Assembly (NCBI GenBank): GCA_025356505.1
Contig: JANXSV010000082.1
Coordinates: 1-5,743, forward strand
From: Methylovirgula sp.
GTDB lineage: Bacteria; Pseudomonadota; Alphaproteobacteria; Rhizobiales; Beijerinckiaceae
DNA: 5,743 nt
Direction of reading: 5' to 3'
Below, in pieces: positions 1 through 5,743 of the stretch (the first letter of the stretch is position 1; each line of letters opens with the position of its first letter). The notes beneath the pieces were generated by a model. It saw only the letters and a program-made list of their open reading frames with translations. It had not been told where the DNA came from and did no database searches. The position numbers and the translations under genes were made by a program.

Positions 1-6
1 CACGCC

Positions 7-35
7 TTGATTGCCTCAGATAAGAGGGCTAAGTA
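7..35 (+). promoter_or_regulatory. Possible mbfA promoter (weak)
   Basis: TTGATT at 7-12 could serve as a -35 box, with TAAGTA at 30-35 as a poor -10 box after a 17-bp spacer. A start about 7 bp further on would fall inside the palindrome at 38-56, which would suit repression by an Irr-type regulator. The -10 match is weak, so this is a suggestion from spacing and context only. Confidence 0.25.
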
Positions 36-37
36 CA

Positions 38-56
38 GTTTAGAAGTATTCTAAAC
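38..56. promoter_or_regulatory. ICE/Irr-box-like palindromic operator of mbfA
   Basis: The sequence GTTTAGAAGTATTCTAAAC is a perfect inverted repeat: two 8-bp half-sites separated by GTA. It lies 23 bp before the mbfA start codon. It matches, as I recall the consensus, the iron control element bound by Irr in Hyphomicrobiales (TTTAGAA-N3-TTCTAAA-like). Irr is the haem-responsive Fur-family regulator that represses iron-export genes when iron is low. I infer that mbfA is repressed by Irr here. The position, just before the gene and probably at or near the transcription start, fits a repressor site. Confidence 0.8.
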
Positions 57-79
57 AACTCAGAACGAAAGAGCGAACC

Positions 80-1075
80 ATGAAGGGTCTAGCAGAACTT
101 ACCGAGCGCGAGGTTTTGGCTGTTGCAATCGCCAATGAAGAAGAGGATTCGCGCATTTATCAGCAGTTCGCGGATGATCTCATGGCAGAATACCCCGAGT
201 CGGCGGCATTTTTTGTTGAGATGGCGGAAGATGAGCGCGAGCACCGCGGCATGCTTTTTGATCTTTACCGGCAAAAATTTGGTGAAAACCTGCCGCCTAT
301 CCGCCGCGAAGACGTCAAGGGCTTCGCCAAACGCCGGCCTTTCTGGCTGACGCGCAACCTCGGCGTCGAGCGGATGCGCAAAGAGGCAGAGATGATGGAA
401 CTGCAGGCGGCGCAGTTTTACGATGCTGCGGCGGCGCATTCGACCAATGTTTCGGTGCGTGAGCTGCTTTACAAGCTCGGCGAACTGGAGCGAAGCCACG
501 AGAAAAAGGCCGTCGATCTGACAAGCAAGCATCTGGCAGGGGACGCTGCGGCGGAAGAGGCGGCAACGGCGCGGCGGGCATTCGTGCTGCGCTATGTGCA
601 GCCCGGTCTGGCAGGATTGATGGATGGATCGGTTTCAACACTGGCGCCGATTTTTGCTGCGGCTTTTGCCACGCACAACAATTGGAGCACCTTTCTGGTG
701 GGTATGGCCGCGTCGATTGGAGCGGGCATCAGCATGGCGTTTGCCGAGGCACTTTCTGACGATGGTTCGTTGACCGGACGCGGTACGCCATGGCTGCGCG
801 GCGGCGTTACCGGCATTATGACGACGATCGGCGGTATCGGGCACACATTGCCCTATCTGGTGCCCGATGGCATTACGATGAAACTCGGGTCTCTGGTGCT
901 GGACTCATTTCATATCGCCACCGGGATCGCGGCTATTATCGTCTTTATCGAACTCTGGGCCATCGCCTATATCCGGGCGCGGTTTATGGATACGCCGTTC
1001 CTGCACGCTGCATTTCAAGTGGTACTGGGCGGCGTCGCCGTGTTCATCGTCGGCATTTTGATTGGCTCGGCTTGA
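80..1075 (+). CDS. mbfA: Membrane-bound ferritin-like iron exporter MbfA (rubrerythrin-VIT1 family)
   Basis: This 331-residue protein has the two-domain build of MbfA, an inner-membrane exporter that removes excess ferrous iron and protects against iron and peroxide stress in rhizobia and Agrobacterium. Residues 1-150 form a ferritin-like (erythrin) domain with probable di-iron ligands: E20 in NEEEDSRIY, E52-x2-H55 in DEREH, a Glu in the 102-107 helix, and E137-x2-H140 in ELERSH. Residues 165-331 form a VIT1/CCC1-type membrane domain that opens with GLAGLMDGSVSTLAP (177-191) and has about five hydrophobic segments (about 183-200, 203-222, 240-258, 271-297, 308-329). The length is normal for the family. 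The start has a purine-rich site, GAAAGAG at 67-73, six bases upstream. The ICE-like palindrome just upstream predicts iron control by Irr. Family and architecture are clear; transport activity is inferred from homologues. Confidence 0.93.
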   Translation: MKGLAELTEREVLAVAIANEEEDSRIYQQFADDLMAEYPESAAFFVEMAEDEREHRGMLFDLYRQKFGENLPPIRREDVKGFAKRRPFWLTRNLGVERMRKEAEMMELQAAQFYDAAAAHSTNVSVRELLYKLGELERSHEKKAVDLTSKHLAGDAAAEEAATARRAFVLRYVQPGLAGLMDGSVSTLAPIFAAAFATHNNWSTFLVGMAASIGAGISMAFAEALSDDGSLTGRGTPWLRGGVTGIMTTIGGIGHTLPYLVPDGITMKLGSLVLDSFHIATGIAAIIVFIELWAIAYIRARFMDTPFLHAAFQVVLGGVAVFIVGILIGSA

Positions 1076-4393: not shown

Positions 4394-5113
4394 ATGACCG
4401 AGCAAGAGATTCTGGCGCGTCTGCTCTATCGCGACGGTCTGATCCTTATTTTAAACAAGCCTGCCGGGCTGGCGGTTCATCGCGGCCCGAAGGGCGGAGA
4501 AACGCTTGAGGATTCGCTGCATTTTCTGACCTTCGGCCTGCCGCGCAATCCGGCGTTGGCGCATCGGCTCGATAAGGACACGTCGGGGTGCCTTATCTTG
4601 GGGCGGCACCGCAAGGCGCTTGAAAAAATGATGCAGCTGTTTAAGCGGGGCGAGGTTGAAAAGACCTATTGGAGTATTGTCGAGGGTGGCCCACCTGAAG
4701 ATTCTGGTTTGATCGATTTGCCACTGGCTCCGCAAAATCCGGATCGGGGCTGGTGGATGAAGGTTGATGCCGGTGGCGCACCCTCGCAAACCAAATGGTC
4801 CGTGCTGGGACGAGGACTAGAAAACGGTCGGCCGGTGACGTGGCTGCAGCTTGAGCCTCTCACGGGGCGCACCCACCAACTACGGGTTCATTGCGCCCAT
4901 ATGGGCTGGCCGATTCTGGGTGATGCGATTTACGGCGTAAATGGCCAATCCGAGCGCGAGATGATGCACCTGCATGCGCGCGACGTCACTTTTTCACTGT
5001 CCAAAAACAAACCGCCGCTCAAGGTTGAAGCGCCGCCGCCACCGCATATGCTGGCGCGACTGGCTCTATGCGGTTGGAAACTGCCTGAAGCTGACCTTCT
5101 TGCAGCGCTGTAA
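4394..5113 (+). CDS. RluA-family RNA pseudouridine synthase
   Basis: This 239-residue enzyme of the RluA family converts specific uridines in rRNA or tRNA to pseudouridine. The core is complete: ILNKPAGLAVHRG (19-31), the catalytic motif HRLDKDTSG (57-65, with D60 as the nucleophile), EVEKTYWSIV (87-96), and the C-terminal family motif LTGRTHQLRVHCAHMG (156-171) followed by GDAIYG (176-181). It has no N-terminal S4 domain, so it resembles the short RluA/TruC-type members; the target RNA and a precise gene name cannot be assigned. The ATG at 4394 lies 100 bp from the divergent ftsY start, with only a weak GAG-rich site upstream. Its last 95 bp overlap, on the opposite strand, the 3' end of an mtaB fragment. 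A second copy of its C-terminus lies inverted at 5502-5743. Confidence 0.93.
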   Translation: MTEQEILARLLYRDGLILILNKPAGLAVHRGPKGGETLEDSLHFLTFGLPRNPALAHRLDKDTSGCLILGRHRKALEKMMQLFKRGEVEKTYWSIVEGGPPEDSGLIDLPLAPQNPDRGWWMKVDAGGAPSQTKWSVLGRGLENGRPVTWLQLEPLTGRTHQLRVHCAHMGWPILGDAIYGVNGQSEREMMHLHARDVTFSLSKNKPPLKVEAPPPPHMLARLALCGWKLPEADLLAAL

Positions 5114-5252
5114 TGGTAACGTGCACCATTTTATTGGGTTCAAATCCAGCAAGTCTCACGGGAGTGAAGTCCGGTGTGCGGGCTAGGCCACCGCGCTCTG
5201 TGAGCACAGTGAGGCTTCTGCCGATTTGCGCTTTTAAATGAGTGAGATTTGC
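4872..5252 (+). repeat. Left arm of a large inverted repeat
   Basis: This 381-bp arm matches the reverse complement of 5363-5743 without gaps: paired positions always sum to 10615. By hand count there are 36 mismatches, about 90% identity. It contains the last 80 codons of the complete pseudouridine synthase gene and, antisense, the last 78 codons (stop included) of an mtaB fragment. The longest identical blocks are 4991-5064 (74 bp) and 5134-5180 (47 bp). The arm may extend further left, because its partner is cut by the window edge. Confidence 0.95.
5019..5252 (-). pseudogene. mtaB: mtaB 3' fragment, left copy
   Basis: The minus strand reads ANLTHLKAQIGRSLTVLTER, then LARTPDFTPVRLAGFEPNK and VHVTITALQEG, before a stop at 5019. 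This has the look of the C-terminal, TRAM-like RNA-binding end of MtaB, the radical-SAM enzyme that adds a methylthio group to t6A37 of tRNA. Only 77 residues are present of a protein usually over 400 long. The reading frame loses MtaB similarity at about 5252-5257, where the sequence switches to the inverted second copy. The last 95 bp overlap the 3' end of the pseudouridine synthase gene. Differences from the right copy are mostly silent in this frame, which shows that it was a real coding sequence. In the source genome the gene would have continued on the minus strand and would stand upstream of ftsY, as in many rhizobia. Confidence 0.8.
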
Positions 5253-5256
5253 ATGT
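5249..5256. other. Head-to-head junction between the two mtaB fragments
   Basis: Up to about 5252-5256 the sequence continues the left mtaB copy (minus strand, ...ACA CAT GCA AAT CTC). From about 5249 it continues the right copy at an earlier part of the gene (plus strand, TTG CAT GTG TTT CCG, reading LHVFPFS). The roughly 4-8 bp TTGCATGT can belong to both, which is microhomology at an inverted join. No insertion sequence, target duplication or filler sequence is seen. Confidence 0.75.
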
Positions 5257-5596
5257 GTTTCCGTTTTCGGCCCGCGCCGGCACGCCTGCCGCAAAAATGC
5301 CCCCGGTCCCGTCTGCCACCATAAAGGCGCGTGCGTCGGCGTTGCGTGCCGCTTCCGCACAGGCAAATCTCAGTCATTTGAAGGCGCAAATAGGCAAGAG
5401 CTTGACTGTGCTGACTGAGCGCGGCGGCCTAGCGCGCACACCGGACTTCACTCCCGTGAGACTTGCTGGATTTGAACCCAACAAAATAGTGCACGTTACC
5501 ATTACGGCTCTGCAAGAGGGTCAGCTTCAGGCTGTTTCCAACCGCACAGGGCCAGTCGCGCCAGCATATGCGGTGGCGGCGGCGCTTCAACCTTGA
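5249..5596 (+). pseudogene. mtaB: mtaB 3' fragment, right copy
   Basis: The plus strand encodes LHVFPFSARAGTPAAKMP, the conserved segment that ends the radical-SAM part of MtaB-type methylthiotransferases. Next come a charged helix (IKARASALRAASAQ) and the TRAM-like end with LTVLTERGGLARTPDFTPV and VHVTITALQEGQLQAV, to a stop at 5594-5596. This copy starts about 37 residues further upstream than the left one but still lacks the Fe-S and radical-SAM core. The frame is closed by a stop at 5243-5245, just before the junction. A TTG at 5249 could be read as a start codon, but in full-length relatives this position is the Leu of an internal LHVFPxS motif, so I treat it as internal. The last 95 bp overlap the second pseudouridine synthase copy on the opposite strand. 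The residues after QLQAV are probably an overlap-derived tail. Confidence 0.83.
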
Positions 5597-5743
5597 GCGG
5601 CGGTTTGTTTTTGGACAGTGAAAACGTCACGTCGCGCGCATGCAGGTGCATCATTTCGCGCTCGGACTGGCCGTTCACGCCATAAATCGCATCGCCCACG
5701 ATCGGCCAACCCATATGGGCGCAATGCACCCGCAGCTGATGAG
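5363..5743 (-). repeat. Right arm of the large inverted repeat
   Basis: This is the reverse-complement partner of 4872-5252, and it is still matching when the window ends. The 110 bp between the arms (5253-5362) are not spacer of foreign origin: they are the extra upstream part of the right mtaB copy. The true length of the repeat is therefore unknown and may be several kilobases. Confidence 0.95.
5502..5743 (-). CDS. Second RluA-family pseudouridine synthase, C-terminal part (runs off window)
   Basis: The minus strand encodes the last 80 codons of a second RluA-family pseudouridine synthase, from THQLRVHCAHMGWPIVGDAI through CGWKQPEADPLAEP to a TAA at 5502-5504. It matches residues 160-239 of the complete copy with five substitutions: one Leu-to-Val in the body and four in the last ten residues (Leu to Gln, Leu to Pro, Ala to Glu, Leu to Pro). 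The 5' part, with the catalytic HRLD motif, lies beyond the right edge, so its completeness cannot be judged. Nearly all base changes before the overlap with mtaB are silent, so this copy has been under selection as a protein. It is convergent with the right mtaB fragment. Confidence 0.87.
   Translation of the reverse strand, partial: HQLRVHCAHMGWPIVGDAIYGVNGQSEREMMHLHARDVTFSLSKNKPPLKVEAPPPPHMLARLALCGWKQPEADPLAEP

Follow-up and report, generated by a model that had tools for sequence, protein, structure and literature searches.

The inverted repeat at the right end of this contig is, at a probability that we put near 93%, a fold-back artefact that joins the DNA of two strains and would not be a feature of the genome. 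The window analyzed here, 5,743 nucleotides, is the whole of contig C231 in a draft genome of 453 contigs and 2,571,602 bases with an estimated completeness of 97.22%. This reading is carried by a sister contig that continues the left arm of the repeat straight on, by the gene order in relatives and by two further contigs of the same draft that end in the same way. The initial annotation had leaned toward a chimeric inverted join of two related strains, and these three lines of evidence support that leaning.

The right end of the contig carries two versions of one gene junction

A single inverted repeat dominates the window. Its arms, at 4874–5257 on the plus strand and 5358–5741 on the minus strand, measure 384 nt each, lie 100 nt apart and agree at 348 of 384 aligned positions without any indel. 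The initial annotation had described gapless arms of at least 381 bp, about 90% identical and 110 bp apart, which is essentially right. A chance origin of arms this long is excluded, because among the other inverted pairs listed for the window the longest has only 27 nt at 74% identity. The right arm stops 2 bases short of the contig end and no unique sequence follows it.

In both arms a pseudouridine synthase gene (PUS) and mtaB converge with their 3' ends, as had been recognized from the start. The complete PUS gene (4394–5113, plus strand) matches Pfam family PF00849 above the cut-off; its best NCBIfam match is the RluA subfamily with 163.1 bits, below the cut-off of 192.7 for that model. 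The 3' part of mtaB (5019–5252, minus strand) runs toward it in the left arm. In the right arm the same junction appears reversed, with a second version of the 3' part of mtaB (5250–5596, plus strand) and of the 3' part of PUS (5502–5741, minus strand) forming what is probably a chimeric tail. PUS and mtaB converge so far that their reading frames have 95 bases in common (5019–5113); in the listed relatives the matched parts of the two genes lie at least 79 bases apart, as measured with an mtaB query minus its last 38 residues. A structural RNA was considered and rejected, the Rfam search of the window having returned zero matches at gathering score. Further to the left, the window encodes an MbfA-type iron exporter (80–1075; NF045676, 505.7 bits against a cut-off of 450) and, at 1969–2988 on the minus strand, a reading frame of 339 amino acids that has no Pfam match.

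The collinear continuation lies on a sister contig

The left arm is continued up to 5252 by contig C343 (5,989 bases) of the same draft. Positions 1–119 of C343 are identical to window 5134–5252 (plus strand), and at the end of this stretch the two continuations part. Past base 119, mtaB continues in frame on C343 and is followed by dapF; the rest of MtaB encoded there matches TIGR01579 with 412.9 bits (cut-off 357.05), and it is this match on the sister contig that identifies the gene as mtaB. Since the left arm runs collinearly into C343, mtaB is complete across the two contigs. It had been argued from the window that a genome with these fragments only would lack a complete mtaB here, and a search for an intact gene elsewhere in the genome had been suggested; C343 and the left arm together supply the full gene and so answer this concern.

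Alignment of the window against C343 in forward and reversed orientation placed the junction at 5250–5252. At these three shared letters, TGC, the contig switches to the opposite strand and resumes at the equivalent of C343 position 232, which lies 113 bases further on. From there, 5250–5355 reversed is identical to C343 over 106 bases, the longest identical run in C231. The loop side of the junction (5253–5357, minus strand) consists of mtaB sequence on the reversed strand. The few bases of microhomology originally noted at the head-to-head join are these shared letters TGC. The accompanying claim that both mtaB pieces are cut at the same point has to be revised: the left piece ends at the equivalent of C343 position 119 and the right piece at that of position 232. 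As the right piece reaches this far, the spacer between the arms is mtaB as well.

The right arm is most likely a second strain's version

Beyond the 106 identical bases, 36 of 386 positions in the tail (about 9%) differ from the collinear version. When the right arm was compared with the collinear version, the changed codons were synonymous in 16 of 21 cases for PUS and in 13 of 19 for mtaB, without any indels; some changes are counted twice in these numbers because the two genes overlap, and of the six non-synonymous mtaB codons the one at 5253 is already beyond the junction and hence does not count as a true difference. Judged by this pattern, the right arm appears to be a functional homologue. 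A decaying duplicate is ruled out by the lack of indels and the mostly synonymous changes. With its divergence of 9%, the right arm most likely derives at least in part from a second strain, and another strain's copy of the PUS/mtaB junction is its most likely source.

On the other side, when the bin was searched with this region, the second version turned up on no contig apart from the tail itself. We also looked for a donor among relatives, using the best 80 of at least 514 PUS loci. Within this set, which may omit the genome of the window itself or very near records, no close relative was found as a donor for the right arm, the protein identities being 53–67%; among the 40 relatives searched, none belonged to the same genus. 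Signs of strain redundancy are present in the draft: sampled contig pairs overlap at 93–98% identity, and judging by these overlaps of contig ends the bin appears to mix strains. The left end of C231 (window 1–667) likewise overlaps the end of contig C346 with 96.4% identity over 668 columns, likely reflecting strain redundancy in the bin.

The path into the sister contig restores the gene order of relatives

Among the 80 loci of relatives, 60 hold both PUS and mtaB, and 58 of these have the order ftsY(-) PUS(+) mtaB(-), the exceptions being L057 and L063. The gene dapF(-) comes next in 55 of the 60. In the remaining 20 of the 80 PUS loci, mtaB had no match within the stretch examined. The path from C231 into C343 gives ftsY(-) PUS(+) mtaB(-) dapF(-), the same order as in the relatives.

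Two further contigs of the draft end in fold-backs

We surveyed 100 of the 453 contigs besides C231 and C343. This sample was non-random, with roughly each fifth contig number taken, together with eight contigs whose numbers are close to those of C231 and C343. In total, 29 of the 100 contigs consisted entirely of N and 71 were readable; including C231 and C343, the readable set comprises 73 contigs with 503,368 bases. Terminal inverted repeats were found in 2 of the 71 other readable contigs, C75 (L152) and C180 (L123). The fold-back of C75 lies at 4894–5161, has exact arms of 109 bases and shares the five letters AGCCG at its junction. In C180, 8704–8737 folds back on 8124–8157 over 34 exact bases, and the eight junction letters are AAAGCATC. 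Three letters are shared in C231. The joined segments lie 113 bp apart for C231 (measured on C343), about 55 bp apart for C75 and about 550 bp apart for C180. The unrearranged sequence is present in the same bin in all three cases: as C343 does for C231, the sister contig C176 passes straight beyond the junction of C75 (467 bases at 96.6%, and 164 reversed at 95.7%), and C335 does so for C180 (406 bases at 96.1%).

An exact 20-mer test asked whether a sequence recurs as its reverse complement within one contig; 2 of 145 contig ends were positive (C75 and C180), against 0 of 7300 internal 20-mers. The fold-back of C231 was detected by alignment and not by exact 20-mers because its arms differ. 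Repeating the survey without the low-complexity filter again gave just C75 and C180, plus a near-palindrome of 26 bp in C40 (17–42). A perfect palindrome of 20 bases was also seen in the interior of C233. As a control we used the draft genome of a relative (G007), in which 0 of 33 ends were positive; at the rates seen here, 17 readable contigs (of 20) from a single genome are too few to reveal whether the present draft is unusually rich in fold-backs. Two of its contigs carry internal inverted repeats.

Origin of the fold-back

Library preparation is reportedly a source of fold-back reads also in a study on long reads. For chimeras of multiple displacement amplification (MDA), passages of Lasken and Stockwell (2007; PMC1855051) report that 85% of 475 were inverted, that 83% of the inversions join segments less than 10 kb apart, and that at least 2 complementary letters, with a range of 2–21 nt, are found at 76.8% of the junctions. 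Measured against these published passages, the second segment of C231 is inverted as in MDA inverted chimeras, the joined segments of C231, C75 and C180 are close, within less than 10 kb, and their junctions of 3, 5 and 8 nt fall within the range of 2–21 nt (PMC1855051). The three junctions thus fit a chimera of the MDA type made in the tube with respect to orientation, distance and shared letters. Unlike the MDA chimeras in those passages (PMC1855051), C231 has a right arm that differs by 9%. Excerpts of another study describe inverted chimeras from short-read library preparation as well (PMC10908179), so that the cause may lie in either chemistry. With the fold-back reads described there, C231 would share an inverted join that is made during preparation or sequencing and is absent from the cell; unlike the artefacts in those excerpts, which arise at inverted repeats or palindromes pre-existing in the genome, the join in C231 had just three shared letters to start from (PMC10908179).

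We therefore favor a fold-back of the following kind. While the DNA was being amplified or made into a library, a strand would have used the three shared bases to switch to the opposite strand of the same gene region, about 113 bp away; we infer that this switch happened in the tube as a step of DNA preparation. Following this chimeric path, the assembler would then have entered DNA that likely belongs to a related strain and stopped where its sequence ended. The change of strain may already have been present in the chimeric molecule, or the assembler may have introduced it once past the loop's 106 identical bases.

The overlap of C231 and C343 is consistent with such an assembly. The default k-mer sizes of MEGAHIT include 119, according to parts of a published description (PMC9784204), and the exact fork at 119 bases fits a fork in a k-mer graph. 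This match is suggestive only, because it concerns one overlap and the 73 readable contigs yielded no second exact end overlap of 16–250 bases. All three fold-backs have exact stretches shorter than 119 bases: 109 in the arms of C75, 34 in those of C180 and at most 106 in C231. Such a limit would be expected if no path through a k-mer graph can use one k-mer twice.

A real inverted rearrangement, in which some cells carry a diverged and inverted second copy of the PUS/mtaB junction beside the first, is very improbable in our view. Microhomology-mediated template switching could have produced it, as could an insertion of related-strain DNA. In its favor, both arms are coding and have no gaps, microhomology is present at the junction, and a minority strain could carry the structure. 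Against this, the bin also contains the collinear continuation with its exact overlap of 119 bases, only 2 bases separate the repeat from the contig end, and the unrelated contigs C75 and C180 end likewise, each with a collinear sister. Inverted repeats of 102–185 bp do occur in 21 of the 80 loci of relatives, some of them adjoining these genes, with identities of 70–83%; no inverted repeat of at least 100 bp in the 80 loci reaches 85% identity. Moreover, none of the six window proteins searched against Pfam matches a transposase or mobile-element family, two of the six (the full-length frame at 1969–2988 and the short tail frame at 5502–5741) matching no family at all. On the strength of C343 and the two further fold-backs we reject this explanation, and a strain in the population that acquired an inverted partial PUS/mtaB duplication from an approximately 9% different strain by microhomology-mediated template switching is just as improbable.

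Less probable still is a purely computational misjoin, in which an assembler or scaffolder placed contigs of two strains end to end in inverted orientation although no chimeric molecule existed: the overlapping contig ends of an apparently strain-mixed bin would favor it, but only 3 bases are common at the join, far below any k-mer, the window contains no run of N, the fork comes after exactly 119 matching bases, and k-mer graph assembly generally requires reads that span a join.

A fold-back artefact at the contig end, as favored here, carries a warning about the quality of the draft. At least three of its contigs (C231, C75 and C180) end in reversed and most likely chimeric tails, which could pass for inverted repeats, for split mtaB genes or for duplicated genes. 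Such tails can be flagged without reads by the combination of a terminal inverted repeat and a sister contig that passes straight beyond the junction.
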